Positions 12,214 to 38,942 of a stretch of DNA of 64,000 nucleotides are shown here, in pieces. The notes below the pieces were generated by a model that saw only the letters and a program-made list of their open reading frames with translations, was not told the DNA's origin and ran no database searches. The position numbers and the translations under genes are program-made. Position 1 is the first letter of the stretch. Every line of letters starts with the position of its first letter. This DNA comes from Candidatus Poribacteria bacterium. Lineage in GTDB: Bacteria > Poribacteria > WGA-4E > WGA-3G. Location: NCBI GenBank assembly GCA_022823085.1, contig JAJDXV010000033.1:17333-81332 (forward strand), read 5' to 3'.

Positions 12214-12692
12214 AATTAACACACTTCGATGAAAAAGGCAATACACGGATGGTAGACGTCGGTGGCAAAGAAGAGACGTTGCGCATCGCCATCGCACGCG
12301 GGCATATTACTGCCCAACCAGAAACACTCCGATTAATCGCTGAGCAAAAGATGAAGAAAGGCGATGTCTTAGAGGTCGCACGCCTTGCAGGTATCATGGC
12401 AGCGAAACGGACCGGTGAACTCATCCCGCTCTGCCACCCGCTCGCTTTGACTTCAATTCGCGTCGAACTCGGCATCGCAACCGATACATCACGCATCGAA
12501 ATTGAATCAGAAATCCAAACGATCGGTCGCACCGGTGTAGAGATGGAAGCACTCACAGCCGTATCCGTCGCTGCCTTAACTGTTTACGATATGTGCAAAG
12601 CAGTGGACAAGGAGATGGTCATCGGTGATGTTAGACTTATAAAAAAAACTGGCGGAAAAAGTGATGATTTCATATCCAATTCCGACACATAG
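12183..12692 (+). CDS. moaC: Cyclic pyranopterin monophosphate synthase MoaC
   Basis: MoaC turns the MoaA product into cyclic pyranopterin monophosphate in molybdenum cofactor synthesis. Diagnostic stretches are MVDVGGKEETLRIA, AKRTGELIPLCHPLALTSI (active-site region), GVEMEALTAVSVAALTVYDMCKA and KEMVIGDVRLIKKTGGKS. The track ORF starts at 11982, inside the kinase gene, but the family begins near LTHFDEKGN; I use the ATG at 12183, giving 169 residues, the usual size. An ATG at 12144 is possible. The first ten codons come from an interspersed repeat. No other moa gene is in the window, so it stands alone here. Confidence 0.92.
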   Translation: MNVIPPQGKIKLTHFDEKGNTRMVDVGGKEETLRIAIARGHITAQPETLRLIAEQKMKKGDVLEVARLAGIMAAKRTGELIPLCHPLALTSIRVELGIATDTSRIEIESEIQTIGRTGVEMEALTAVSVAALTVYDMCKAVDKEMVIGDVRLIKKTGGKSDDFISNSDT

Positions 12693-12723: not shown

Positions 12724-15660
12724 ATGCGCCAAACATTCATTGCAATTTTCACTGTTATTCTGGTTTCTACAACAGCGTTCGCAGCAGACCACGTTCTCAT
12801 CATTGGTGGTGCTGCCGGTGAGAAATCCTTTTACGACGCATTCTGGAATGCCACCTCCCGATTCCACCAACTCCTCACCGATGAATACGGCTATACATCC
12901 GACCAAATTACTTTCCTCTTTGAAGATATGGACGCACCTGGTGCTGAAGGACTTACCGATACCGAATCGAGACGTGAACAGGTTTTCGCAGCGTTCGACC
13001 AACTCGCAGAGACCCTCCAACCCTCAGATCGGTTCCTGCTCTTCATGATCGGACACGCATCCCGCACCAACAAAGGTGAACTGAAATATAATCTGCTCGG
13101 ACGGGATATTAGTGAAGCGGAATACATAACACGTCTCAACAGCATCCCCGCCGAACGTCAGATTTTAATCTTCGGTTTCCCCTATAGCGGCAAACTTGTG
13201 CGACAACTCAGTAAACCGGGACGTATCATCCTCACATCCAGTTCGCGAAATGAAGGCTACTCACTACAAGCAGGATTTGGCGATGCCTTTGTCGATGCCT
13301 TCTCCGATGCAACGAACGATACCGACAGAAACGGCGACATCTCGCTCTTAGAAGCGTTCTTATCGCTACAAGCACACACAAAAGACTTCTACGAACAAAA
13401 CGGCAACGTCCAAACTGAGCATCCGCATCTCGACGATAACGGCGACGGGAACGCTACCCGAAACTTGACAGTTGTAGAGAACGAAACAGACGATGGAACG
13501 CTCGCCGAAAAGACATTCTTAGGGACACGACGTGCGCGCTTAGAAAACGCAACCGTTCCAACCGTCAGTAACGAAACGATCGAAACAGAGGCACGCGGAC
13601 GTGGACCGGATATCGTCTCTCAGAACCCCGAAAATCGTGGATCCTCACTTCCTTACAACTACATTAGCGAAGCAGACGAGCAAGCCATCCAAGAAATTAT
13701 GGAGAAACTGCCCTCCGAAAAAGACTATCCTGATGAAGGTGCAGTCGTCCTTTGGGAGAGCGTCGATGTCAATATCGATGAGAAAAGCCGTTATATCTAT
13801 TCCACACGGCGGATCGCAAAAATCTTTAACGAAGACGGTAAAAACCTCGCAGAGGTGAGCATCCCTTATATGCGTGGCAGAGACGATGTCACGATCCATC
13901 ATGCACGAACCTTAACACCGAACGGTGAACTCGTTGAACTCGACAAGAACGAAATTATCGCCAACGTGCCGCCACCGAGCGCCGTGGATGCCGGACTATA
14001 CGTTGACGCACGACTGATGTACTTCACACTTCCCAAAGTTAGCGACGGCTGTATCATAGACTACGCTTATTCCACGAACAACGTCGGGCACGTCATGCAA
14101 GGCGAATTCTGGCGGCAAGTCTATTTTCAAGGCGCGCATCCGGTGCGCTATTACCGCCTCACAGTCCATATTCCAAAGAAAAAGCAGCTCTATTATCAGG
14201 TCTCAGGGGCACCCGCTGCCGCCACAGATGTTCAGTCGGACAGTTCCTTTCTCGATATTGAACCGACGATGACAGAGAACAACTACACCCGCACCTACAC
14301 CTTTGAAGCACGAGATGTACCACCCCTGAATGAAGAATATCTGATGCCCGCACCGCAAGACCTCGCTTATAACATCAGCATCTCCTCCCTCGATTCTTGG
14401 GATGAACTGGCAACGTGGTATGCAACACTGATTCGGGAACAAGACAAGATTACACCCGAAATCGCCAAAAAGACAGAGCAGATTCTCACCGGTGCCTGGA
14501 CACGAAAAGAAAAAATAAAAAGGCTTTACGAATACGTCGCAACGAACATCCGGTACTACGGTTATGAACTTGGAATTTGGGCGATTAAGCCCTATCCAGC
14601 TGACTTTGTTCTGACGCAAGGTGCCGGAGATTGTAAGGACAAAACAACGCTCCTTTCCACAATGCTCGCAGCTGAAGGCATTAATTCCTATCCTGTTCTC
14701 ATCTCCGCTGGCGACACCCGCGGCATCAATGCACATCTCTTTGATGGCGGTTCCGAAGTCGAAGCCGTACCTTCGCTCTCCTATTTCAATCACATGATCC
14801 TCGCTGTCGAAGGCGACAAAGATGGCGAACTCATCTGGCTCGACCCGACAGCGGAGACATGTGCATTCGGTGATTTCCCCGCCAGCGACCAAGACAGATG
14901 GACCCTGATTATCAATCCGCGTTTCTTGGAAACCGAAAGCGATCCAAAGTCTAAAGAGGATATTGGCGATCTACAGAATAGCCTCTACCGCTTTCAGAAG
15001 AGCCCCGCTCTCGACGCAACATCAAATCTTAAACAGGTTCACACCGACGTAAAGGTGAAGAGGGATATGAGCGTCTCTGTCCGCCAAGAATTGACCCTCA
15101 CAGGCAGCTACAATATGAAACTGCGAAGCCAACTCTCGCATCTCCAAACCGCTGAAGAAAAATCTGAGTTCCTTCACAAACTTTTGGAACTCGACGATCG
15201 CGCTAAAGTCGAAAATTTCAAAGTCTCCGAACTTTCCGAACTCAAAGGTGAATTGAATATTGAACTCACCTGGACCTGTAAAGAATATCTCTACGCTATC
15301 GGTAAACAGTTCGTACTTGAGCTCCCGCTTGTTAAGCATCCTTACGCAGAATTACTGAGTGAGGAACGCCGAATGTATCCTGCTGCGATCGGTAAGGCAC
15401 TCACCCTTGAGGACAAAATCACCGTCAGTACCGAGGCGCCCTTTAAGATCGATATTGTCCCAGAAGAACAGGCACTCAAAACCGAAGTTGCGGAAATCCA
15501 ACTCCGCTACACCAAATCCAAGCGCAAAGCCGAAATGCATCAGACCATCCGTTTCCTAACACCGAGGGTTACACCGGAGAACATCCTGCATCTCAAAGAT
15601 GTCGTCAGAACCGCCTCAAACCGAGGAACAAAACGGTTCATATTAATACAAGAGTTTTAA
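12724..15660 (+). CDS. Exported caspase-fold (C13-like) / DUF3857 / transglutaminase fusion protein
   Basis: I start at the ATG at 12724 (after GGGAGAAAAG), which exposes a signal peptide ending TTAFA; the track start adds 21 unlikely residues. Residues 18-240 look like a C13/caspase-type fold: VLIIGG opening, histidine motif LLFMIGHAS, then ILIFGFPYSGKL where the usual CYSG is PYSG, so the cysteine is gone. Residues 330-560 match DUF3857, and a transglutaminase-like domain follows with an intact triad: GAGDCKDKT (Cys), FNHMIL (His), WLDPT (Asp). The last 240 residues resemble the C-terminal region of DUF3857 proteins. So one half is likely a dead binding module and the other an active periplasmic amidase or crosslinker. 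MoxR follows 180 bases later. Confidence 0.8.
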   Translation: MRQTFIAIFTVILVSTTAFAADHVLIIGGAAGEKSFYDAFWNATSRFHQLLTDEYGYTSDQITFLFEDMDAPGAEGLTDTESRREQVFAAFDQLAETLQPSDRFLLFMIGHASRTNKGELKYNLLGRDISEAEYITRLNSIPAERQILIFGFPYSGKLVRQLSKPGRIILTSSSRNEGYSLQAGFGDAFVDAFSDATNDTDRNGDISLLEAFLSLQAHTKDFYEQNGNVQTEHPHLDDNGDGNATRNLTVVENETDDGTLAEKTFLGTRRARLENATVPTVSNETIETEARGRGPDIVSQNPENRGSSLPYNYISEADEQAIQEIMEKLPSEKDYPDEGAVVLWESVDVNIDEKSRYIYSTRRIAKIFNEDGKNLAEVSIPYMRGRDDVTIHHARTLTPNGELVELDKNEIIANVPPPSAVDAGLYVDARLMYFTLPKVSDGCIIDYAYSTNNVGHVMQGEFWRQVYFQGAHPVRYYRLTVHIPKKKQLYYQVSGAPAAATDVQSDSSFLDIEPTMTENNYTRTYTFEARDVPPLNEEYLMPAPQDLAYNISISSLDSWDELATWYATLIREQDKITPEIAKKTEQILTGAWTRKEKIKRLYEYVATNIRYYGYELGIWAIKPYPADFVLTQGAGDCKDKTTLLSTMLAAEGINSYPVLISAGDTRGINAHLFDGGSEVEAVPSLSYFNHMILAVEGDKDGELIWLDPTAETCAFGDFPASDQDRWTLIINPRFLETESDPKSKEDIGDLQNSLYRFQKSPALDATSNLKQVHTDVKVKRDMSVSVRQELTLTGSYNMKLRSQLSHLQTAEEKSEFLHKLLELDDRAKVENFKVSELSELKGELNIELTWTCKEYLYAIGKQFVLELPLVKHPYAELLSEERRMYPAAIGKALTLEDKITVSTEAPFKIDIVPEEQALKTEVAEIQLRYTKSKRKAEMHQTIRFLTPRVTPENILHLKDVVRTASNRGTKRFILIQEF

Positions 15661-15839: not shown

Positions 15840-16847
15840 ATGCCAGCAACCGAAGAAGTTAAAGCAATAGAAGAACTCATGGAGAGCCAAGAACTCATCT
15901 TGGCACAACTCAAGAAAGTCATCGTTGGGCAAGAGGAAGTTGTCAATCAGATGTTGATGGCACTTTTTGCTGGTGGACACTGCCTACTCGAAGGTGTCCC
16001 AGGACTCGCCAAAACCCTTATGATTAGGACCCTGGCACAGATCCTGAACCTTAAGTTCAAACGCATCCAGTTCACCCCGGATCTGATGCCTGCCGACATC
16101 ACCGGCACGGATGTCCTTGAGGAAGACCGGGCAACCGGACACCGCACCATTCGGTTTATCCAGGGACCGATCTTCGCGAACATTCTCCTCGCAGATGAGA
16201 TTAACCGGACACCACCGAAAACGCAAGCCGCACTCTTGGAGGCGATGCAGGAATACCACGTCACCGCTGGCGGCAACGAATTCCAATTGGAGCAACCCTT
16301 CTTCGTCCTCGCCACACAGAACCCGATCGAGCAAGAGGGGACATATCCGCTACCAGAGGCACAGTTGGACCGGTTCATGTTCAAAATTGTCATCGACTAT
16401 CCGACAGAGGCGGAGGAGACAGACATCGTTTCGGCAACGACTGGGGCAGAGATCCCTGAACTTGATACCGCACTCTCCGGGCACGCTATCGTAGCCCTCC
16501 ATAATATTGTCAGGCGTGTACCTGCCGCCGACAACGTCGTACAATACGCCGTAAAAATCGCGCGCGCAACACGTCCGAAAGAAGAAGACGCACCCGATTT
16601 CATTCAACAGTGGGTACGCTGGGGTGCCGGACCCCGTGCCGGGCAATACCTCATCTTAGGCGCGAAAGCCAGAGCCATCCTACGCGGACGCTTCAACGCC
16701 TCCTGTGAAGACGTGAAATCCGTTGCCCCCGCAGTGCTACGCCACCGTATCCTAACCAACTTCCACGCCGAAGCCGAAGGCATTGGCTCAGACACCGTCG
16801 TCCAACGTCTCCTCGACACGGTCCAAGAACCGGCTTCAAAACTGTAG
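15840..16847 (+). CDS. MoxR-family AAA+ ATPase
   Basis: MoxR chaperone-type AAA ATPase of the usual length (335). Walker A is GVPGLAKT (the family's G-x-x-G-x-x-K-T), Walker B is [24 protein letters not shown], sensor 1 is [24 protein letters not shown], and the C-terminal lid carries AVLRHRI. MoxR proteins help fold or insert metal centres and often work with DUF58 and von Willebrand factor A proteins and transglutaminases. Here the transglutaminase fusion lies upstream but no DUF58 or VWA gene follows, so the set is incomplete. The leader holds a hairpin just ahead of the ribosome site. Confidence 0.92.
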
Positions 16848-18612: not shown

Positions 18613-18753
18613 AAACTATAAATAAATTTAGCATTTTTTCAACATTGTATTGTGATATGGAAGCGCGAACGGAAGATCCTATCAAATTAGGAATATAATG
18701 TCTGTACTTTTAGTGCAAGAAATCTCGCAAAAGTTCAGGAGGAATTGGTAACT

Positions 18754-20919
18754 ATGAAAACTGGCACATTGTATAAAATTAGACCCGCGGGACGACATAT
18801 TCTCACCATCGGCCGTGATCTTATTCAAGACAACTATGCGGCTGTTTTTGAGTTGGTAAAAAATGCTTATGATGCTGATTCTCCTGATGTGCACATAGAA
18901 TTCAAAGTATCTCCTGATGACAGTGGATATTCCATTGTCATCTCTGATCATGGGCATGGGATGTCCAGGGACGATGTCATTAACAAATGGATGGTGCCAT
19001 CAACTGATAACAAACGTAAAAGGCGAAAGAGTCCTTCTGGAAGGGTACTGCAAGGCAGTAAAGGTGTAGGACGCTATGCAGCATCTATCCTTGGAGCAGA
19101 TATCCTTCTTGAAACGGTTAATCTCAAGGGTGAAAAAACAACCACTTATCTTGAATGGAGCAGCTTTGAGACTGCCTCGTACTTGGATGATGTGGAAATA
19201 CCATTGGAAACAACCATGGTCTCTGAAACTCCAGGCACACGGTTGACTATCAATGGCGGGAGTGAAATGCTCGCTGAATGGGACCAGAAACAGTTTGACA
19301 AGCTCCGGTTTGAGTTGAAGAAACTTACCTCACCCATAATCAATGCGCTCAGCAAGAAAGATAGAGGTGAGGCATTCCATATCAGTCTGACAGTTAACGG
19401 ATTCCCCGGTGTGAACGACATAAACGAAATTATCGAACCTTATCCGCTTCTCGACCTCTTTGATTACAAGATCGCAGGTAAAATTAGCAAGAATGGTAAA
19501 GGTATTCTAACATATTCATCACAGAAAGCTCGAAATATTCCAGAAGAGAAGATTTCCTTCAATTTTGAGAAACCCACAGGCTGCGGCGAACTTGATATTG
19601 ATATCCGCGTTTATGACCGGGAGGCAGATGCCATTGATGCCCTCATTAAGCGGGGTTTTACGGATGAATCCGGCAAATATGTCCAAAAACTTGAGGCGAG
19701 ACAGATTCTGAATGCCAGCAACGGTATTGGCGTTTATCGAAATGGATTCAGAATCCGACCGCTCGGCGATCCTGACTTCGATTGGTTGAAACTCAACGCC
19801 CGAAGAGTGCAGAACCCTACACGCTGTATCGGCAGCAACCAAGCAATTGGCTATGTCCAGATTCAATCCGAGGATCAATCTCACTTAATTGAAAAAAGTG
19901 CTAGGGATGGATTGAAAGAAAATACAGCTTTTAATCGACTAAAAGAAATAACAACGCAGGTTATAACAGAGCTTGAATGGAGACGTTTCAGTTACAGAAA
20001 GCGCGCGGGTTTGAGCCGTCCCGCTTTCAAGATGGAAAATAATCTACAGAATCTTTTTTCCTACGATGACCTAAAAGAAAATATAGAACTGGTATTGACC
20101 AAAGCCGCTGTTGATAGAATAACAACTGACGAAATCATTAAACGCATCAATGAAGATGCCGAAGAAAAAAATAAACTTGCTGATGAAATCCGCCAAACTG
20201 TTGCTATTTACCAGAGCCAAATTACCTTGGGAAAAATCATTAATGTCTTACTTCATGAAGCCAGACGACCGCTCAGTTACTTTCGAAACCGAATACCTTA
20301 TCTCAAGCGTAGGTACGACTCATTTCAGAAAAATGGAGACTTGATAGACCTTGAAAAAGCTATCGAAATTGTTGACGGAATTGCTGAAAATTCTCAATTC
20401 TTTGTAAACCTCTTTAAAAGGCTTGATCCGTTGGCAGCGGGAAAAAGATCCGCGAAAAAACCTTTGGCATTAAAAAAAATAATAGAGAATGTGTTTTCTG
20501 TCTTTGAAAACGAAATGAAATCTCACAATATCTCTGCTGAAATCGAATGCCCCGACGAATTCAGATTTCCCGCTTGGCATCAGGACATCTATGCAATTTT
20601 CACGAATCTCATCGACAACAGCCTTTATTGGATCAGTCAGAAAAAGTCTGAAACACGCGAAATTACGATTGAATTCCTGATCCATGAGGGATCCCTGATT
20701 CATATTGACTATCACGATACCGGACCAGGAATTGAAACCCGTCTTATTGAGAGCGAAGTGATCTTTGAACCCCATTTTTCCACCAAACCAGACGGAACGG
20801 GACTCGGGCTGGCGATAGCAGCGGAAGCCGCAGACCGAAGCGGGCTTGAACTAAAAGCTTTTGAATCTAAAAACGGTGCTTATTTCAGGCTGCAGCCCAA
20901 AGTAGAAGGGGAAAAATGA
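18754..20919 (+). CDS. Dual-GHKL sensor: N-terminal Hsp90/MORC-like ATPase plus C-terminal histidine kinase
   Basis: AGGAGG ten bases before the ATG at 18754 decides this start (the track begins at a TTG nine bases earlier). Two complete GHKL ATPase sites are visible. The first, residues 10-130, has AAVFELVKNAYDAD, SDHGHGM and GSKGVGRYA, as in Hsp90/MORC/MutL-type ATPases. The second, at the end, has IFTNLIDNSLYWI, DTGPGI, FEPHFSTK and GTGLGLAIA, a standard histidine-kinase ATPase. Between them LLHEARRPLSYF is an H-box with His501. No membrane segment is seen, so it is cytoplasmic. The following receiver gene overlaps by ATGA, so they form a phosphorelay pair. The island setting points to defence or stress sensing. 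Confidence 0.85.
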   Translation: MKTGTLYKIRPAGRHILTIGRDLIQDNYAAVFELVKNAYDADSPDVHIEFKVSPDDSGYSIVISDHGHGMSRDDVINKWMVPSTDNKRKRRKSPSGRVLQGSKGVGRYAASILGADILLETVNLKGEKTTTYLEWSSFETASYLDDVEIPLETTMVSETPGTRLTINGGSEMLAEWDQKQFDKLRFELKKLTSPIINALSKKDRGEAFHISLTVNGFPGVNDINEIIEPYPLLDLFDYKIAGKISKNGKGILTYSSQKARNIPEEKISFNFEKPTGCGELDIDIRVYDREADAIDALIKRGFTDESGKYVQKLEARQILNASNGIGVYRNGFRIRPLGDPDFDWLKLNARRVQNPTRCIGSNQAIGYVQIQSEDQSHLIEKSARDGLKENTAFNRLKEITTQVITELEWRRFSYRKRAGLSRPAFKMENNLQNLFSYDDLKENIELVLTKAAVDRITTDEIIKRINEDAEEKNKLADEIRQTVAIYQSQITLGKIINVLLHEARRPLSYFRNRIPYLKRRYDSFQKNGDLIDLEKAIEIVDGIAENSQFFVNLFKRLDPLAAGKRSAKKPLALKKIIENVFSVFENEMKSHNISAEIECPDEFRFPAWHQDIYAIFTNLIDNSLYWISQKKSETREITIEFLIHEGSLIHIDYHDTGPGIETRLIESEVIFEPHFSTKPDGTGLGLAIAAEAADRSGLELKAFESKNGAYFRLQPKVEGEK

Positions 20920-21971
20920 AAAAATTAAGGTTACTTATAGTTGAAGATGTTGAAGAGGAACTCGAAAGTTTTAGGGATGACCTTGAAGACTACACGCGCG
21001 AAAAAGAACGCGATATCGATTTGGTCGAATGCAAAACGCTGCAGGAAGCATTAGACAAACTGGATAATTCCTTTGATGGTGCCATTATTGACCTAAAACT
21101 CGCGAACCATCGAACTAATGAAGGACATCAGGTTGTTGAAAAGATTAGAAAGTCGTTTTTTCGGATTCCAATCGCCATATTTACTGGAAATCCAGGGGAT
21201 TGGAATCACAATTTGAATGAACAAACTATGCTTATTGATGTCTTCACAAAAGGGGAAACTGGACACTATGAACTCTTAGACCGGTTTTGGGAAATTTATA
21301 ACACAGGGCTCACTCGTATCATGGGAGGCAGAGGCCGAATCGAGCAGTGCCTCAACGAAGCTTTCCTCAAAAACCTCCTACCCCAAATAAAAAAGTGGAT
21401 ATCCTACGGAGAAATAGACCCAGAACGCACTGAAAAGGCTCTCCTCCGATACGCTCTAAATCATTTGTTTCAACTCCTTGAAGATGACGAGGAACGCTGT
21501 TTTCCTGAAGAATTCTATTTATATCCTCCGACATTGGACCGGATTACCACCGGAAGCATTGTAAAAATGGATGAGCAATCATTTGTGGTTCTGACGCCAG
21601 CTTGTGATCTTGTTCCCAGAGGGCAAAATGGCGAACCCAATACAAATCACATTCTCTTGACCGAGATCGAAAGCGTAGACCAGGTGTTAGGAGGCAGTAA
21701 GAGTAAAAGCAAAATTACAGAGCTTTGTAGAAACAGACTTCAATATTATCATTGGCTACCGAAAACAGATTTTTTTGAGGGCGGGATTCTCAACTTCAGA
21801 AAACTGACAACTCTTGACAAAGACGATTTTGATGAAAAATTTGGAAAACCGACAATTCAAATATCTCCCTCTTTCGTAAAGGATATCGTATCACGCTTTT
21901 CTTCTTACTATGCCCGACAAGGGCAACCCGATATTGACAGCGAAGATTTTGTCATTCGCTACACTACTTGA
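20916..21971 (+). CDS. Response-regulator-like protein with uncharacterised C-terminal domain
   Basis: Residues 1-120 are a receiver domain: acidic pair in LLIVEDVEEEL, phospho-acceptor Asp59 in GAIIDLKLA, Thr90 in IAIFTGNPG and Lys112 in VFTKGE are all present. The inserted segment LANHRTNEG after the aspartate is typical of receivers from conflict systems. The remaining 230 residues match no output domain I know: no helix-turn-helix, no GGDEF. It contains SFVVLTPACDLVPRGQNG, a conserved-looking core with a cysteine. The start overlaps the kinase stop, and its own stop overlaps the next start (TGATG), so translation continues into a toxin-like gene. Confidence 0.8.
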   Translation: MKKLRLLIVEDVEEELESFRDDLEDYTREKERDIDLVECKTLQEALDKLDNSFDGAIIDLKLANHRTNEGHQVVEKIRKSFFRIPIAIFTGNPGDWNHNLNEQTMLIDVFTKGETGHYELLDRFWEIYNTGLTRIMGGRGRIEQCLNEAFLKNLLPQIKKWISYGEIDPERTEKALLRYALNHLFQLLEDDEERCFPEEFYLYPPTLDRITTGSIVKMDEQSFVVLTPACDLVPRGQNGEPNTNHILLTEIESVDQVLGGSKSKSKITELCRNRLQYYHWLPKTDFFEGGILNFRKLTTLDKDDFDEKFGKPTIQISPSFVKDIVSRFSSYYARQGQPDIDSEDFVIRYTT

Positions 21972-23098: not shown

Positions 23099-24712
23099 AT
23101 GCCTACACTCGAATTCAAAGGAAAACACCATATTTATGCACATCATCTTTCTGTCCCGTACCGCCAACTACAACAGGACGAAAACCGATCTTGCAACCCG
23201 TCGGGCAAAGAAGATAACCTCATCATCCACGGCGATAACCTACACGCCCTCAAGGCGTTGCTGCCCCGCTATGCAAACCGAGTCAAGTGTATCTACATTG
23301 ACCCACCCTATAACACCGGAAACGAAGGCTGGATCTATAATGACAACGTCAACAACCCACCCATGCAGGAATGGTTTAAGGAGCACAGTCCGGTTGACAA
23401 CGAAGACTTAGAGAAGCACGACAAATGGCTCTGCATGATGTGGCCGCGGTTACATCTGCTAAAAGAACTCCTCGCTGAAAATGGTGTTATTTTTATATCC
23501 ATTGATGATAATGAACAACACCATCTGCGAATGTTGATGGATGATATTTTTGGAAAAGAGAATTTTATTGAATCTTTAATCTGGCGTTCAAGGTTAGGGC
23601 GGGGAGCAACAGCAAGAAATACCGCCACGTTACACGAGTATATCATCGCTTATGCCAAGGATATAGCGTCAGTAGAATTCAGAGAAGATAAGCGAGTTAG
23701 GGAAATGGAGTCAAGGGAAAGATTACGACAATGGGGACAAGGCGATAGACGAGAAGATAGACCAACAATGTACTATCCTATTTATTCTGACGAATTCGGC
23801 GAAATCTACCCCATAAAACCCGATGGAACTGATGGACGTTGGAGAGTTGCACAACCTACGATGGAGAACCTTATTGAGAAAGGTTTAGTTGTCTTTGAGG
23901 AACAACCAGACAGTCGTATTGAGGCATATAGAATTATACCTGCTGGTACAGAAACCTATACGGCGTATCCTTCGCTACTTGATTCTGAGATTGTCAAAAC
24001 AACTGCTCATGGTAGCATTGAGTTGAAGAATATTTTGGGACCCAACAAGTTTTCCTATCCTAAACCATCATCGCTGGTAAAAGAAATTGCATCTCTGTGC
24101 ACCCAAAAAGGTGATATTGTTTTAGACTCTTTCGCTGGCAGTGGCACAACCGCCCACGCTGTTCTTGCCTTAAACAAAGAGGATAGCGGCAACCGAAAGT
24201 TTATCCTCATTGAATGCGAAGATTATGCCGATACCATCACCGCTGAACGGGTGCGACGCGTCATAAACGGCGTTGAAAATGCTAAAGATGAAACACTCCG
24301 AAAGGGGCTCGGTGGTTCCTTTGCTTACTGCACTTTAGGGGAACCGCTTGAGATAGAGACAATGCTCACTGGGGAAGCGTTACCAGCATACCCAACACTG
24401 GCTGCTCATCTGTTGTTTGCTGCCACCGGTACGTCTGTTGGAGAGAATACTTTGGCGCAGAAAAACGATGATGGATTTTTTTATAGCGATGACAAAAATG
24501 ACTACTACCTACACTATAAACCTGATATCGCGTTCTTACGTAGTGAGGATGCGATCCTAAATAAAGCACAGGCAGTGCGTATCCACGAAGCGGGCCGCAA
24601 GGATGGCAAAAAAGCGATTGTTTACGCCGCAGGCAATTACATCGGACAACGTGAACTGACTAATTTGGGAATCGTATTTTGTCAACTCCCCTATGCCCTG
24701 CACGAAAGATAA
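23099..24712 (+). CDS. mod: Type III restriction-modification DNA methyltransferase (Mod)
   Basis: A beta-class N6-adenine (or N4) methyltransferase: the catalytic motif IV CIYIDPPYNTGNEGW comes first and the SAM-binding motif I VLDSFAGSGTTAHAV comes near residue 345, the order of type III Mod proteins. The region between, with charged stretches such as REMESRERLRQWGQGDRRED, would be the target recognition domain. It methylates one strand of an asymmetric site and is needed both for protection and, with Res, for cutting. The matching Res gene lies 600 bases downstream, with a HicAB pair between. At 537 residues it is a little shorter than EcoP-type Mod proteins but in range. Confidence 0.9.
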   Translation: MPTLEFKGKHHIYAHHLSVPYRQLQQDENRSCNPSGKEDNLIIHGDNLHALKALLPRYANRVKCIYIDPPYNTGNEGWIYNDNVNNPPMQEWFKEHSPVDNEDLEKHDKWLCMMWPRLHLLKELLAENGVIFISIDDNEQHHLRMLMDDIFGKENFIESLIWRSRLGRGATARNTATLHEYIIAYAKDIASVEFREDKRVREMESRERLRQWGQGDRREDRPTMYYPIYSDEFGEIYPIKPDGTDGRWRVAQPTMENLIEKGLVVFEEQPDSRIEAYRIIPAGTETYTAYPSLLDSEIVKTTAHGSIELKNILGPNKFSYPKPSSLVKEIASLCTQKGDIVLDSFAGSGTTAHAVLALNKEDSGNRKFILIECEDYADTITAERVRRVINGVENAKDETLRKGLGGSFAYCTLGEPLEIETMLTGEALPAYPTLAAHLLFAATGTSVGENTLAQKNDDGFFYSDDKNDYYLHYKPDIAFLRSEDAILNKAQAVRIHEAGRKDGKKAIVYAAGNYIGQRELTNLGIVFCQLPYALHER

Positions 24713-24792
24713 GGTAGTAGGCACTCTTCAATGGGTTCTCCGTAACAAAAGCATTTAACACCAAACGCAGAACGAAAATCAACACATCTATA

Positions 24793-24993
24793 ATGAAAGT
24801 TAGAGAAGTCATCAAATTACTTAAAGATGATGGATGGTTCGCTCACAAAACAAAAGGGAGCCACAGACATTTTAAACATCCGACTAAACCTGGAAAAGTG
24901 ACAGTTCCAGGACAAATGGGTAAAGATATTCATCCCCGAACATTGAACTATATTTTGAAACAAGCCTCTTTAGAAAAAGGAGATTTAAACTAA
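24793..24993 (+). CDS. hicA: HicA family mRNA interferase toxin
   Basis: A 66-residue double-stranded RNA-binding-like fold with the HicA signature: KVREVIKLLKDDGW, then KGSHRHFKHP containing the catalytic histidine (G-S-H), and HPRTLNYILKQASL. HicA cleaves mRNA and is held by HicB. The stop overlaps the HicB start (TAATG). It sits 80 bases behind the Mod gene and inside the restriction-modification operon. Confidence 0.93.
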   Translation: MKVREVIKLLKDDGWFAHKTKGSHRHFKHPTKPGKVTVPGQMGKDIHPRTLNYILKQASLEKGDLN

Positions 24994-25316
24994 TGCGTTA
25001 TCTTGTATTTTTTGAACAAGGTGATACGAATTACAGTGCTTACGTTCCAGATCTTCCTGTATGTATAGCAGTAGGGGATACACTTGAAGAAACACGCAAG
25101 GAAATCTCTGAAGCCATAAAATTTCATATTGAGTGTCTACAAGAAGATGGCGAAATTGTTCCAAAGCCCATTTCAAAATTACCTGATCAAACACCTTCAG
25201 GTGTTTCAGCGGAATTTGTTAACATCAAAGCAGATGCGCTCAAACCGAAGAAACAGTCTATTTTACCTTTTCTTGCGCCTATCATGTCACGCTTTAAACG
25301 GAAGATAAGACCATGA
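24993..25316 (+). CDS. hicB: HicB family antitoxin
   Basis: The N-terminal 70 residues are a partial RNase H-like HicB domain: YLVFFEQGDTNYSAYVPDLP, then VAVGDT-type GDTLEETRKEISEAIKFHIECLQEDGE. The C-terminal part (about 35 residues, rich in lysine and proline) is where HicB proteins often carry a DNA-binding domain, but no clear ribbon-helix-helix or helix-turn-helix is visible here. It overlaps HicA by one base and the Res gene by ATGA, so antitoxin and restriction enzyme are made from coupled reading frames. Confidence 0.9.
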   Translation: MRYLVFFEQGDTNYSAYVPDLPVCIAVGDTLEETRKEISEAIKFHIECLQEDGEIVPKPISKLPDQTPSGVSAEFVNIKADALKPKKQSILPFLAPIMSRFKRKIRP

Positions 25317-27874
25317 TGCAATTGAAAGAATATCAACGCAACACCCTTGATGCCTTTAGTCGTTGGCTTGAGACACTAAAAAAAGAAAGAGATAAGTCCA
25401 ATAAAGGGATTGAGGCATTGGAACAAGCTGGGATCGATATACCGGATGATTTGCGTAATTATCCGAAAAAGGCATGGGATCAATTGAAAGAGAATAGTGG
25501 TGTTGCGCCAAGTGCTGGCGATTATGTCTCACGCACAGACGAGGTAGACCGCCCTATCCCACATATCTGTTTCAAAGTGCCGACAGGTGGTGGTAAAACA
25601 TTGCTTGCTACTGCAGCTTTGGAGCGTCTGAATCGGCAGCGCGGATTGACTTTGTGGATTGTGCCGACCAAAGCGATTTACGCTCAAACAAAAGCTGCTT
25701 TGTGGGATAGACAACACCCGTATCGTTTAATGTTGGAACGCGCCAGTGCTGGGAAAGTCAAGGTGCTTGAAAAGGAAACTCCGTTTAACAGGGATGATAT
25801 TGCCAATTACCTGTGCGTGATGCTACTGATGTTACCCGCCGCAAATCGGAGAACTGCGGAAAGCAGGGAGTTCCTCCGGATGTTTAAAGATTCGGGACGT
25901 TATCCGAGTTTTTTTCCTGATAGCGACGACATTCTTGGCAATGCGCGTATGCAAGAAGAATATCCTGATCTGGAATGTAAAACAGGAGGCGGATTTGTCA
26001 AACAGAGCCTGTTTAACGTATTCAAAAAGCTGCGTCCTGTTGTCGTACTTGACGAGGCACATAAAGCCTATGGCGCGAGCAACCGCGAAGCAAACGAAGA
26101 ATTCGCTAAATCTATCAACCGACTTAATCCGCAAATGGTGATTGAACTCTCTGCCACCCCAAACCGCGGAATTAGTAATCTACTGGTTGACGTGAGCGGA
26201 ACTGACCTGAAAAAAGAAGAGATGATTAAATTGCCTATACAGGTAAAAGCTTTCAAAGGTGTCCAGTGGCAATACACCTTAGCACAGTCAGTTGATGAAC
26301 TCAATCGACTCGCGACTGCGGCACAAGCACTTGAAAGCGGGACAGAACGATATATCCGCCCGATTGCTGTTGTCAGAGTCGAACGTACAGGGAAGGATAA
26401 ACGGGATGGCGAGCGAATTCATGCGGAAGATGTCCGCGAGCATCTTGAGCGATTAAATGTGCCTCGGGAGACAATCCGCGTTAAATCCTCTGATAATGAC
26501 GAACTGGGCGGAGAAGACTTACTCTCCAAAGAATCGCAAGTCCGTTGGATCATCACGAAATCCGCCCTCATGGAAGGTTGGGACTGTCCGTTCGCCTATC
26601 TGTTAGTGATGCTTGACAATACACAAGCACAAAAGGCGATAACGCAACTCGTGGGACGTGTTATGCGGCAACCGCATGCACAACGCACAAAACAAGAACT
26701 CTTAGATCAGTGCTATGTTTATTGTAATAATACGGATGTCGGGGCTGCAGTTGAAAAAGTCAAGATCGGATTAGAAAAGGAAGGACTCACCGGATTAGGG
26801 GATGAGGTCATAAGCACAGTAGATACACAAACTAATTTGCGTACAATAGTCGTTCAACGACGCGAACGTTTCCGAGGGAAGACAATCCATCTGCCAACAG
26901 TGCTACATCAGAATGGAGATGAATATGTTCAACTCAATTATCAAGAACATATTCTACCGCATATAGACTGGGCATCAATCCAACCGCCCGACCCAAATGC
27001 ATCTGCACCTGACAGTGCAATAGGGCAAACTGCAACGGTGGATGTAGAGGAAACACTTCCTGTTTACCATGAGAAGCAAAAACTGGACATCGACAAAACG
27101 GTGAACGTCTCCGATTTTGCGCGTCGTCTCTCAGATATCCTACCGAATCCGTGGCACGCCGCTCGCATTGCAGCACAGATGCACGAGAACCTAAAACAAA
27201 ACGGTGAAACCGAAGAAGATATTTATGACAGACGTTCTTACCTTGTGCATATCCTGCGGGAACACATAAAGCAGGACGTGGAGAAACGAGCAGAGAAGGT
27301 TTTTCAGAGAAAATTGGAGGCAGGCATCATCCGATTTGATTTGGAAACAGGAGAACCTAATTACAAAATCCGAGACACGTATGAAATCACGGTTCCTCAA
27401 AATGCGACACCACTTGCACAGTATGGTAATGCTGTCCAACTCACGTTGTTTGAAAAAGTATTTGAGCAACAATTTGATAACGACTTTGAAAAGAAATTCG
27501 CATTTTACCTTGATGAGCAACAAGCCCTCCAATGGTGGCATCGGATCGCTGCGCGGCAAAGTGGAGAGTATTATGTACAGGGGTGGAAGCAAGAACGGAT
27601 TTACCCAGATTTCGTTGCAATGGCTAACGAAATCAGTGGTGTAACACGCGTATTACTCTTTGATACAAAGGGCGAACATCTGGAAGGCAACCTTGATACA
27701 AAATACAAGCGAAAGGTGTTGAAAACCCTTGAAGGGTCCTTTAATGCCGCCGGTACTATGGTGGTGCACGACGGCACGCAACGGAAGGGCATATTTCGAT
27801 TGGTTTTCAACGAACAAGAGTTTCAAGAAATATCTGCACAGTTGAATGACGGCGGATATTCTACGGAAAGTTAG
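25313..27874 (+). CDS. res: Type III restriction enzyme Res subunit (SF2 helicase-endonuclease)
   Basis: An SF2 translocase with Walker A CFKVPTGGGKTLLA, DEAH box VVLDEAHKAYG, motif III ELSATPNRG, and motif VI QLVGRVMRQPHAQRT. The C-terminal endonuclease is a PD-(D/E)XK site: IYPDFVAMANE followed about 20 residues later by LLFDTKGEHLEG. It hydrolyses ATP to move or signal along DNA and cuts when two unmodified sites are met, together with Mod. Length 853 is somewhat short for type III Res (often 950-1000), but all motifs are intact. The start (MMQLKEY) overlaps hicB. The gene ends about 100 bases before an AAA ATPase with its own promoter. Confidence 0.9.
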   Translation: MMQLKEYQRNTLDAFSRWLETLKKERDKSNKGIEALEQAGIDIPDDLRNYPKKAWDQLKENSGVAPSAGDYVSRTDEVDRPIPHICFKVPTGGGKTLLATAALERLNRQRGLTLWIVPTKAIYAQTKAALWDRQHPYRLMLERASAGKVKVLEKETPFNRDDIANYLCVMLLMLPAANRRTAESREFLRMFKDSGRYPSFFPDSDDILGNARMQEEYPDLECKTGGGFVKQSLFNVFKKLRPVVVLDEAHKAYGASNREANEEFAKSINRLNPQMVIELSATPNRGISNLLVDVSGTDLKKEEMIKLPIQVKAFKGVQWQYTLAQSVDELNRLATAAQALESGTERYIRPIAVVRVERTGKDKRDGERIHAEDVREHLERLNVPRETIRVKSSDNDELGGEDLLSKESQVRWIITKSALMEGWDCPFAYLLVMLDNTQAQKAITQLVGRVMRQPHAQRTKQELLDQCYVYCNNTDVGAAVEKVKIGLEKEGLTGLGDEVISTVDTQTNLRTIVVQRRERFRGKTIHLPTVLHQNGDEYVQLNYQEHILPHIDWASIQPPDPNASAPDSAIGQTATVDVEETLPVYHEKQKLDIDKTVNVSDFARRLSDILPNPWHAARIAAQMHENLKQNGETEEDIYDRRSYLVHILREHIKQDVEKRAEKVFQRKLEAGIIRFDLETGEPNYKIRDTYEITVPQNATPLAQYGNAVQLTLFEKVFEQQFDNDFEKKFAFYLDEQQALQWWHRIAARQSGEYYVQGWKQERIYPDFVAMANEISGVTRVLLFDTKGEHLEGNLDTKYKRKVLKTLEGSFNAAGTMVVHDGTQRKGIFRLVFNEQEFQEISAQLNDGGYSTES

Positions 27875-35327: not shown

Positions 35328-38300
35328 ATGCAGCACAAACTCTGCGCAAATTGTGGGTTTTTAAATCCATCATTCAAATTTTGCGGTGAATGCGGCACAC
35401 CGCTCAACGCGCCTTCGCGCCCACGTGAATTACCGACACCCGATACAACCGCCATCGAACAGGCACTACCACACGGTGCGGAACGCCGACAACTCACAGT
35501 CCTTTTCTGCGATATTGTCGACTCCACAGCATTCACCGAAAAACTCGATCCCGAAGAACTCCGAAACCTATTAGAGATATATCGGACCTGTATCATGGAG
35601 GTGGTCTTAGCACAAAACGGACACATCGCACGCTACTTCGGGGACGGTATACTCGTCTATTTCGGTTACCCCGCCGCACATGAAGATACAGCACACCGTG
35701 CCGTGAGGGCTGCACTCGGTATCGTCGCCGCTATTAAAACACTAAACCCGTACCTCCATACAACCTTCGGTGTAGAGATCAGCGTCCGTATTAGCATTGA
35801 TACAGGACGTGTCGTCGTCTGGCACATCTCCGCGCAGGAATCACCGGAAGCCATCGACATCGTCGGTAAAACACCGAACCTCGCCGCAAGGATGCAAAAA
35901 CTCGCATCACCGAATACCATCGTGATTGGGGATACAACACACCAATTGGTTGACGGCTTTTTTGAATGCGATGCGCTCGGGGCATCCGCACTACGTGGTA
36001 TTTCGCAACCCGTCAACATCTATCAGGTGTCCGGTGAATTCCCCGCCCAAAGCCGACTCGATATCGCCAGTGAGAGTGGACTCACACCGCTGATCGGACG
36101 TAAACATGAGGTCGAACACCTTAAACAGAGTTGGACACAGGCACTCGCAGCGAATGGACAAGCACTCCTTATTGAAGGCGAAGCCGGTATCGGAAAATCG
36201 AGATGTGTACAAGTCATTCAGGAACACGTTGCAAACCATCCGGAGGCTGTCACTTTAGAAGGTAGATGCTCGCAATACTACCAGAACAGTCCGCTGTACC
36301 CTATCCTCTCGCTGTTCCAAGAACATGTTGTACAGTTCACCAATACCGACACCGCAGAAGCGAGGCTCGAAAAACTCGAAAATTTGCTCCAAGACTATAG
36401 CGTTCCAACTGTCGAACAGAACGAAAACGCGCAAGCACATATACCAGAAACGCTGCCACTCCTCGCCGAATTATTGGAGATACCTTTTGAAATACAGCGC
36501 CAAACGGAAACCGGTATCGGTATCCATCCATACAGTAGACCGATTGAGCAGGACACATACCCTTCCGGCTGGCGGCGCAGACAGCGACGACAACAGACAC
36601 TCGAAGTCCTCGTCGAAGTACTCCTGAAGATGTCGGAACAGAAACCGATCCTCTTCATCGTAGAGGACCTTCACTGGATCGATCCATCAAGTATCGAATT
36701 CCTCACACTTTTAATCGCACGGATCCAAAATGCCCGAATCTTCGTGGTCCTGTCCTGCCGCTCAGACACACACCATTTTCGGAACAGCGCGCAATCCAAT
36801 GAGGAACAGAACACACAGACAGGTACAGATGAGCGACTCGCAAACAATACCGTCGACAAAGAAACGCTGAAGAAACTGCTGCAACCGGCATGGGCAAATA
36901 CACTACCGCTGGAACCACTCACGCCGCCACAGGTAGAGACAATGATCCAACACGTTGCAGGCGATACGCGATTACCATCAGACTTATTGACAAAAATCGT
37001 CGAAATGACGGAAGGGGTCCCGCTGTTCGTCGAGGAACTCACACAGATGATGCTCGAAGGCGATACCTTGGCACTGTCTTCGGAGGCAACAGACGCAAGC
37101 GGCACAACAGCACAAACAGTAACTGTCCCTGTAACACTGCAAGACCTCCTGACAACACGATTAGATGAACTCGGTCCCGTCAAGGAGATCGTACAACTCG
37201 GCGCAACGCTCGGCAGAGAATGGACAGCCGAACTCCTCCACAAGATCGCCTCCGGTGTCGAACTCGGAAACGATACTTTTACCGATTTCGTAACCCTGAA
37301 GGCTGAACTCGATACATTAGTAAACGCCTATATCCTCAATCGAGACAAGATCTCGGATAGCCAATTCCGCTATACCTTTAGACATCCGCTGCTCCGCGAG
37401 ACGGCTTATCAAGCACTCCTAAAAAGCACGCGACAGCAGTACCATCAACAGATCGCAGAGGTCCTCCAACGCGAAGACGGTTTCCAACCCGAACTCGTCG
37501 CATATCACTATACCGAATCCGGACTCTCCGAAAAAGCGATCGACTATTGGCACCGAGCTGCACACCGCTCCTTAGAACGCTCCGCCAACGTCGAGGGTGT
37601 CCGACATATCATGCAAGGGTTGGCAGCACTCGAAACACGCTCAAAAAGCGTCAACACAACGGAAGAACAGGAAGCCGTCCAACGGCGTGAACTCGAACTG
37701 CAAACGACGCTCGGCACAGCACTCATCGCAACCAAAGGGTACGCCTCCCCAGAGGTCGAAGTCGCCTATACACGCGCACGCGAACTACTTGAAACACTCG
37801 AAAAAACGGAGGAGACAACTTCAAAAAATGAACCCGATACCTCGCTCGATGAGATAAAAGACCTCCGCTTCCCGATACTGTTCGGATTGTGGCTCTCACA
37901 TGTCGTTCGCGGCAGACTCCTCTCCGCACGCGAACTCGGTGAAGCCTGTGTCGCTATCGCAAAACAAGCGGAAAACCAAGCCTTTGAAATTGAAGCGCAT
38001 CGCGCACTCGGCGCAACACTCTACTATTTGAGCGAATTCAAAAGTGCATTAGCGCACATGGAGAAAGGCATTGAATACTATCAACCCCAGCACCACCACT
38101 CAGTGCCAGCGTTCCTCCACTATGTCGCTGAACCCGGTATGACACTCCTCGCCTACTCCGCACCCGTACTGTGGTGCCTCGGCTACCCAGCACAAGCCGA
38201 AGAACGGCTTAACAAAGCAATGGCGATCGGAAAAGATTCAAACCATCCATTTAGTGAGGCAGTATCGCTCCATTTCAAAACTGTCTTCTATCAATACCGA

Positions 38301-38942
38301 GGTGAAGTGGTGGAAGTAGATACCGCAGCACGGCAGATGCTACAGATATGTCGGGAACACGCGTTTTCCGGGTGGGAAGCCGCCGCACTCGTCATGAAAG
38401 GATGGACCATAGCAGAGCAGGACCGCCCTGAAGAAGGCATCGCTATGATCCGGAAAGGCATCGCCGCATGGGAAGAGACACGCGCTGAAGTACTCCTGCC
38501 GCTCTTCCTCGCACTCCTCGCACAAGCATATCAACGCGCCGGACAATACAGCTTGGCACTACAAACGCTTGATACCGCATTAGTTGTCATTACACGCACC
38601 GGCGAACGCACCTATGCCGCTGAACTAACGCGACGGAAGGGTGAACTCTACCTGATCCTCGCTGAGAAAGTTGAGGCTTACAGCAATGAGAATACGGCAG
38701 CAACGCTCGCGGAAGCCGAATCCTATTTTCTCGATGCCTTGGCTATCGCACAACGCCAAAACGCAAAATCGTGGGAACTCCGAGTCGCACTCAGTCTCAG
38801 CGAACTATGGCACACGCAAAACCGAGATACAGACGCATACAACTTACTAAAACCGATATACACATGGTTCTCAGAAGGTTCGGATACAAAAGACCTTATC
38901 CGCGCCAAAAACTTTCTAAAGGAATTAGAAACTCTCGCATAA
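35328..38942 (+). CDS. Zinc-ribbon / class III nucleotidyl cyclase / AAA ATPase / TPR signalling protein
   Basis: Domains in order: a four-cysteine zinc ribbon (LCANCGFLNPSFKFCGECG), a class III adenylate/guanylate cyclase at about 45-220 with both metal aspartates (LFCDIVDSTAF, RYFGDGILVYFG), a STAND-like AAA_16 ATPase from about 245 (Walker A IEGEAGIGKS, Walker B FIVEDLHWID), and a C-terminal TPR-like helical array from about 740 to the end. The enzyme half would make cAMP (or cGMP), and the ATPase/TPR half would switch it in response to a ligand. Such proteins are frequent in soil and marine bacteria with large signalling sets. A Crp/Fnr protein lies 4 kb upstream, a possible but unproven receiver of the signal. 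Confidence 0.9.
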   Translation: MQHKLCANCGFLNPSFKFCGECGTPLNAPSRPRELPTPDTTAIEQALPHGAERRQLTVLFCDIVDSTAFTEKLDPEELRNLLEIYRTCIMEVVLAQNGHIARYFGDGILVYFGYPAAHEDTAHRAVRAALGIVAAIKTLNPYLHTTFGVEISVRISIDTGRVVVWHISAQESPEAIDIVGKTPNLAARMQKLASPNTIVIGDTTHQLVDGFFECDALGASALRGISQPVNIYQVSGEFPAQSRLDIASESGLTPLIGRKHEVEHLKQSWTQALAANGQALLIEGEAGIGKSRCVQVIQEHVANHPEAVTLEGRCSQYYQNSPLYPILSLFQEHVVQFTNTDTAEARLEKLENLLQDYSVPTVEQNENAQAHIPETLPLLAELLEIPFEIQRQTETGIGIHPYSRPIEQDTYPSGWRRRQRRQQTLEVLVEVLLKMSEQKPILFIVEDLHWIDPSSIEFLTLLIARIQNARIFVVLSCRSDTHHFRNSAQSNEEQNTQTGTDERLANNTVDKETLKKLLQPAWANTLPLEPLTPPQVETMIQHVAGDTRLPSDLLTKIVEMTEGVPLFVEELTQMMLEGDTLALSSEATDASGTTAQTVTVPVTLQDLLTTRLDELGPVKEIVQLGATLGREWTAELLHKIASGVELGNDTFTDFVTLKAELDTLVNAYILNRDKISDSQFRYTFRHPLLRETAYQALLKSTRQQYHQQIAEVLQREDGFQPELVAYHYTESGLSEKAIDYWHRAAHRSLERSANVEGVRHIMQGLAALETRSKSVNTTEEQEAVQRRELELQTTLGTALIATKGYASPEVEVAYTRARELLETLEKTEETTSKNEPDTSLDEIKDLRFPILFGLWLSHVVRGRLLSARELGEACVAIAKQAENQAFEIEAHRALGATLYYLSEFKSALAHMEKGIEYYQPQHHHSVPAFLHYVAEPGMTLLAYSAPVLWCLGYPAQAEERLNKAMAIGKDSNHPFSEAVSLHFKTVFYQYRGEVVEVDTAARQMLQICREHAFSGWEAAALVMKGWTIAEQDRPEEGIAMIRKGIAAWEETRAEVLLPLFLALLAQAYQRAGQYSLALQTLDTALVVITRTGERTYAAELTRRKGELYLILAEKVEAYSNENTAATLAEAESYFLDALAIAQRQNAKSWELRVALSLSELWHTQNRDTDAYNLLKPIYTWFSEGSDTKDLIRAKNFLKELETLA

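Follow-up and report, generated by a model that had tools for sequence, protein, structure and literature searches.

A nucleophile-less caspase/C13-like domain fused to an apparently intact transglutaminase beside a MoxR ATPase gene in Candidatus Poribacteria

Results

Layout of the fusion locus

The 64-kb window, by which we mean the whole stretch of DNA that was analysed, derives from a Candidatus Poribacteria genome, and its nearest named records are all Poribacteria MAGs. On the + strand, positions 12724-15660 (stop included; 12724-15657 coding) hold a gene for a 978-aa protein with orthologues in other genomes. The ATG start codon at 12724 has the purine-rich stretch AGGGAGAAAAG just upstream, and an alternative GTG start lies further upstream at 12661. 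The protein is predicted from its sequence to begin with a Sec-type signal peptide (aa 1-20, 12724-12783), which reads MRQTFIAIFTVILVSTTAFA followed by AD and ends in a cleavage-like AFA/AD site. This is followed by a pseudo-C13/caspase-like domain (aa 21-245, 12784-13458), a low-conservation linker (aa 246-340, 13459-13743), a DUF3857 domain (aa 358-535, 13795-14328; Pfam E 2.4e-30) related to PDB 3kd4, a transglutaminase-like core (14473-14844; Pfam PF01841) and a C-terminal region (aa 721-978, 14884-15657) that has no Pfam match and is conserved in the orthologues. Next to the fusion gene on the same strand, at 15840-16847, lies a gene for a MoxR AAA+ ATPase (Pfam AAA_3, E 8.8e-64). It belongs to the MoxR type that pseudo-C13 operons carry in other phyla.

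The Transglut_core match (PF01841) covers aa 584-655 with an E value of 2e-6 and a score of 28.5 bits against a cut-off of 23 bits. Cys637, His690 and Asp707 are invariant in all 41 orthologues that cover them, so the catalytic triad that an earlier note on this DNA had read in the transglutaminase is present, and the module is apparently a working enzyme. That note's overall picture, an intact exported transglutaminase fused to a caspase/C13 fold without its nucleophile and placed beside a MoxR ATPase, is borne out by the open reading frame, the Pfam matches and the orthologue columns. As a conserved orthologue is found across most of the phylum, the fusion gene is real and lies far beyond chance. 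The same genome also encodes a paralogue (L002, G000:C56:55618-57315) in which TPR repeats take the place of the pseudo-caspase domain before DUF3857-transglutaminase.

Several other genes in the window were recorded. At 18745-21971 lie genes for a 724-aa protein and then a 351-aa receiver-like protein. The former carries two GHKL ATPase domains, HATPase_c_3 close to its N-terminus and HATPase_c at its C-terminus, and it matches the PADLOC REase_II models at 4.8e-11, probably through the GHKL part. Just after this pair, 23099-27874 holds an N6_N4 DNA methylase (537 aa) and then a type III restriction-like helicase (853 aa), and the two pairs possibly form one restriction or defence island. A 1204-aa protein with guanylate cyclase, AAA_16 and TPR domains is encoded at 35328-38942.

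Fold of the N-terminal domain

When scanned alone, the N-terminal 326 aa give no match in Pfam, and a single-sequence search with the N-terminal domain returned only a metacaspase hint at E 0.1. A profile of 29 Poribacterial sequences matched yeast and plant metacaspases at E 3e-5 to 1e-4, and enlarging it with relatives from other phyla brought the metacaspase match to E 1.4e-7, with an alignment that extends up to the GH histidine and includes it. An hhalign comparison with six Cys-bearing C13-like proteins, four of which lie above the Pfam Peptidase_C13 cut-off, gave P 99.7% and E 9.6e-26 over 214 columns, and it set the Cys of their NPCYSG motif onto the Pro of GFPYSG in the window protein.

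An AlphaFold model of aa 21-262, built on 12 close sequences, has a pLDDT of 64 and a pTM of 0.67, with better values in the core strands. The modelled order of strands and helices is that of clan CD, with GH following one core strand and PYSG following the next. Foldseek places metacaspase 4, legumain, caspases and GPI8 as the best PDB matches to this model with a probability of about 1.0, at TM-scores of only about 0.35-0.56 and on a model of moderate confidence. The full-length AlphaFold model, made from an alignment of close relatives only, has a pLDDT of 34 and is unusable for domain contacts. Combined, the profile, hhalign and model comparisons argue that assignment to the C13/caspase fold is solid and that the model coordinates are not, and the caspase/C13-like fold proposed in the earlier note has held up in each of these comparisons. 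A search of viral contigs found no relatives, and a viral fold library gave no match below 1e-3, its best named entries being caspase-like.

The domain also contains two acidic loops. One is the EF-hand-like NDTDRNGDISLLE (aa 198-210, 13315-13353), where 8 of the 29 members have sub-threshold Pfam EF-hand matches, and the other is HLDDNGDG (aa 235-242, 13426-13449), which the alignment places after a conserved EHP. EF-hand-like loops are common to the window family and to its Ser-type and Cys-type relatives. These two loops might bind calcium.

Loss of the nucleophile and selection on the domain

The catalytic-type histidine, His111, lies in the GH motif (IGHAS; 13054-13056) and is invariant in 42/42 Poribacterial orthologues. 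The nucleophile column, which holds Cys in active C13/C14 relatives and Ser in the operon relatives described below, is occupied by Pro153 in the window protein (codon ccc, GFPYSG; 13180-13182), and 40 of the same orthologues have Pro there and the other 2 have Gln. There are zero cysteines in aa 21-260 of the window protein, and no replacement cysteine was found in its domain. The earlier note had read PYSG for an expected CYSG with the histidine kept and had called for inspection of this column in homologues, and that inspection agrees with its reading. Measured against active C13/C14 peptidases, the domain has the catalytic histidine and lacks the catalytic cysteine. These residues suggest that the N-terminal domain is a pseudoprotease that is probably no longer able to cut.

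The pseudo-caspase domain is carried by 67 of 85 genomes of the Poribacteria phylum, a count that leaves out one of 68 matching genomes (G017) where the match is only a 38-residue fragment. The fusion is usually single-copy; it is carried by most Poribacteria genomes and is no one-genome oddity. At one locus (L049, genome G027) two copies of the fusion gene stand directly one after the other, the first truncated and the second with a run of X (N) at its start, and this duplicate is probably a scaffolding artefact.

Pairwise dN/dS values are 0.06-0.16 for the N-terminal domain, 0.05-0.12 for DUF3857 and 0.05-0.11 for the transglutaminase, and those for the linker (0.14-0.33) lie above the flanking domains in most comparisons. 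Purifying selection on the pseudo-C13 domain is therefore as strong as that on the enzyme modules. Conserved blocks within the domain are GGxxGEKSFYDxFW, GHA and EHP. One genome, G016, lacks the pseudo-caspase domain but retains the signal peptide along with the transglutaminase (57% identity).

Stand-alone relatives and origin of the domain

Among 387 genomes searched, nine from other phyla have strongly matching stand-alone relatives of the domain (E 1e-24 to 1e-48), and tblastn added one on a Gemmatirosa kalamazoonensis plasmid, making ten in all (loci L066 and L101-L109). Their identity to the window domain is about 25-33%, and all ten keep the histidine and have Ser in the nucleophile column. 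All ten genes also lie directly downstream of a gene for a GATase1-like/vWA membrane protein of about 800 aa. The full gene run, DUF4159 - MoxR - DUF58 - BatA/vWA - DUF4175 - GATase/vWA - pseudo-C13, is present at two loci (L104/L136 and L109/L139); a third (L105/L137) has the same run with DUF4159 not visible, and L066 and L107 have a MoxR-DUF58-type run that is rearranged. MoxR, DUF58, BatA and DUF4175 are thus visible in the region of five of the ten relatives. Near L101, L102 and L108 neither MoxR nor DUF58 was found, only the GATase/vWA partner, and the neighbourhoods of L103 and L106 end at contig ends.

Two of these relatives, L104 (25.7 bits) and L103 (28.1 bits), pass the Pfam Peptidase_C13 cut-off of 22.8 bits. 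Both have a Cys near the site (TSCSA in L103, ASCSG in L104) that was considered as a nucleophile and ruled out, as it falls one residue late when the S-G/A motif is aligned; the other eight relatives have no Cys at that place.

In the domain tree the ten relatives form one group (100/99) apart from the Cys-bearing C13/C14 set, and rooting on that set makes the operon proteins and the Poribacterial fusions nearest kin, on long branches. This tree fits one loss of Cys that preceded the fusion, two losses also being possible, and the long branches call for caution. The cysteine was probably lost before the fusion and not as a by-product of it, since Ser is already present at the site in the closest free-standing relatives outside the phylum. 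The operon context of these relatives makes a MoxR-DUF58-vWA envelope system the probable source of the pseudo-C13 module. Present-day proteins still display what were likely the successive states of the site, with Cys in C13-like proteins, then Ser in the operon proteins, then Pro in the fusion.

Other caspase-like and C13-like domains were also seen. A Poribacterial PEGA-domain protein (L119, G047:C1:360638-361081) has a distant caspase-like domain in which His and Cys are both apparently lost, and two secreted-type proteins of genome G355 (L110 and L111) have Cys-bearing C13-like domains with EF-hand-like loops and FlgD-type tails, one of them being 2516 aa long with beta-helix repeats.

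Association with the MoxR ATPase

The MoxR gene directly follows the fusion gene in 23 of the 30 Poribacterial loci with room for it, with a gap of 13-14 bp in two, and is not adjacent in the other seven, five of which belong to family f3; at the one f3 locus that was checked, DnaJ follows the fusion. The window MoxR shares 55-61% identity with its counterparts in the pseudo-C13 operons (53-61% when its orthologues are included) and about 46% with two other Poribacterial MoxRs compared, and it groups with the operon MoxRs. Its place beside the fusion gene is probably no accident, since several relatives of the domain belong to MoxR-DUF58-vWA-GATase operons whose MoxR type it shares. Homologues of DUF58 and GATase/vWA are found only elsewhere in the genome and not in the gene run of the fusion, and the fusion locus looks derived from a MoxR-DUF58-vWA envelope operon and not like a complete member of this class.

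When this MoxR type is counted at identities of at least 72% (the common paralogue reaches at most 66%), 65 of the 85 genomes have both it and the pseudo-C13 domain and 16 have neither, an agreement in 81 genomes that carries limited weight since the co-occurrence is clade-structured and reflects few independent events. The four discordant genomes have MoxR only (G056, where the locus is cut by a contig end, and G018) or the domain only (G019 and G005). The absences in G048, G017 and G018 are probably assembly gaps, as moaC next door is also missing, and the joint absence in G048 and G017 was for this reason dropped as evidence of coupling. The one informative loss is G016, in which this MoxR is absent together with the domain while the transglutaminase is kept.

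Discussion

Proposed function and alternatives

Domain order, loss of the Cys, the intact triad, the fold family, conservation of the fusion, the operon context of the relatives and the kinship of the MoxR are all read from sequence. With these in hand, we give about an even chance to the reading that the gene encodes an exported transglutaminase-like enzyme with a pseudo-C13 docking or regulatory module inherited from a protein of MoxR-DUF58-vWA-GATase operons. A stand-alone operon protein, probably already cysteine-less, would have been fused to the enzyme in the Poribacteria lineage and would have stayed beside the MoxR of its operon. Catalysis would fall to the DUF3857 and transglutaminase-fold cysteine enzyme, whose peptide or protein substrates would lie in the periplasm or on the cell surface. 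The pseudo-C13 module would recognise or dock a substrate or a partner protein, for instance the vWA/GATase membrane proteins, and this docking, possibly with calcium through the EF-hand-like loops, would target or regulate the transglutaminase. MoxR may act from the cytosol; as the fusion protein is predicted to be exported, their coupling would need membrane partners, and the Poribacterial homologues of those lie elsewhere in the genome. We infer in this way the order of events, the docking role, the calcium dependence, the coupling of MoxR across the membrane and the nature of the substrate. A substrate- or partner-binding role for the dead domain, as the earlier note had suggested, is plausible.

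Other readings of the domain were weighed. It could be an inhibitory prodomain that covers the transglutaminase site until the linker at aa 246-340 is cut or a partner pulls the domain away. The fast-evolving linker that joins the N-terminal domain, the intact triad of the catalytic module and a secreted orientation that would suit a zymogen all fit such an arrangement, yet G016 has the enzyme without the domain, and seven of the nine genomes with stand-alone relatives have no matching transglutaminase, so that the older role of the domain was not to inhibit this enzyme; we consider the prodomain reading unlikely. Rather less probable is that the domain is an inert leftover that serves only as a spacer or folding aid. 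It has no catalytic residue besides the His and one lineage does without it, but purifying selection equal to that on the catalytic modules, the conserved sequence blocks and retention in most of the genomes surveyed are not what a mere remnant would lead one to expect.

It is also quite improbable that the domain is still enzymatic through another residue, for example by Ser/His or metal-dependent chemistry. The invariance of His111, the Ser in the nucleophile column of the stand-alone relatives and acidic loops that could hold a metal would suit residual activity. Against this, the nucleophile position is Pro or Gln throughout, the window domain has no cysteine, and Ser155 belongs to an SG motif that is also present in active relatives. 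The inactive caspase effectors of MoxR-vWA biological conflict systems offer a further precedent, as MoxR and inactive caspase-like domains co-occur there and about 70% of the caspases in effector position are inactive (PMC7159879). The window MoxR does pass the bpMoxR cut-off (43.8 versus 27 bits), but AAA_3 fits it far better (213.7 bits), the fusion has no PADLOC match, and the operons of the relatives are of the DUF58/BatA/GATase type. The fusion is moreover exported, it is usually present as one copy per genome, and its distribution covers most of the clade instead of being patchy. Membership in such a conflict system is accordingly very improbable. Among the neighbours examined, no VMAP, iSTAND, FtsH or beta-propeller component was seen.

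That a dead enzyme can be retained as a binding module is familiar from kinases and, to a growing extent, from proteases, but bacterial cases with a traceable origin are few. The cell-envelope role of MoxR-DUF58-vWA operons is poorly understood, and the fusion suggests a partner enzyme and a possible, testable function for an unnamed protein of these operons. We extend the docking reading only tentatively to a wider one, namely that MoxR-DUF58-BatA-GATase envelope operons of several phyla could share the cysteine-less C13-fold protein as a conserved component not described before, which would serve as a peptide or partner receptor and perhaps depend on calcium, with the Poribacteria fusion hinting at substrate delivery to an envelope-modifying enzyme under MoxR control.

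Comparison with known systems

In the open-licence literature we found no paper that describes a caspase/C13 domain joined to DUF3857-transglutaminase, or a pseudo-C13 protein as part of DUF58 operons, which is weak evidence of absence; the pairings of DUF3857 with transglutaminase, of DUF58 with caspase and of Poribacteria with caspase likewise gave nothing relevant there.

The domain shares with Peptidase C13/clan CD (legumain, GPI8, metacaspase, orthocaspase) the order of the fold, in which the His and then the nucleophile loop follow successive core strands, and EF-hand-like acidic loops occur in it and in C13-like bacterial proteins alike. It differs from that family in having Pro for Cys, in having no Pfam match there and in being fused to DUF3857-transglutaminase. 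Pseudo-orthocaspases are, like the window domain, bacterial caspase-fold domains without the dyad, and in the sections of the orthocaspase survey used here they number 858 of 9,994 orthocaspases, mostly of the YS, YA and FS types and also HA and QC (PMC6426788). No variant named in those sections is His-Pro, and the partners listed there are TPR, trypsin and DUF4843 with no transglutaminase (PMC6426788). The window domain is nearer to C13 than pseudo-orthocaspases are.

For the DUF3857-transglutaminase part, the only solved relative found is PDB 3kd4, a putative protease (E 7e-6), in which YGTPLE is aligned opposite the GDCKD active-site motif of the window family and no caspase-like domain is matched. 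TgpA of Pseudomonas aeruginosa lies in the inner membrane and is not known to have a caspase-like or DUF3857 domain, and its neighbours PA2875 and PA2874 encode a MoxR-type ATPase and a DUF58 protein. The gene for this transglutaminase-domain protein (PA2873) is co-transcribed with these two upstream genes (PMC3507681). Unlike the TgpA operon, the window gene has no DUF58 gene alongside. Closest of all is the pseudo-C13 protein of MoxR-DUF58-BatA-DUF4175-GATase operons, which keeps the His and has a site without Cys, and which differs from the fusion in being stand-alone, in having Ser in the site and in adjoining a GATase/vWA gene.
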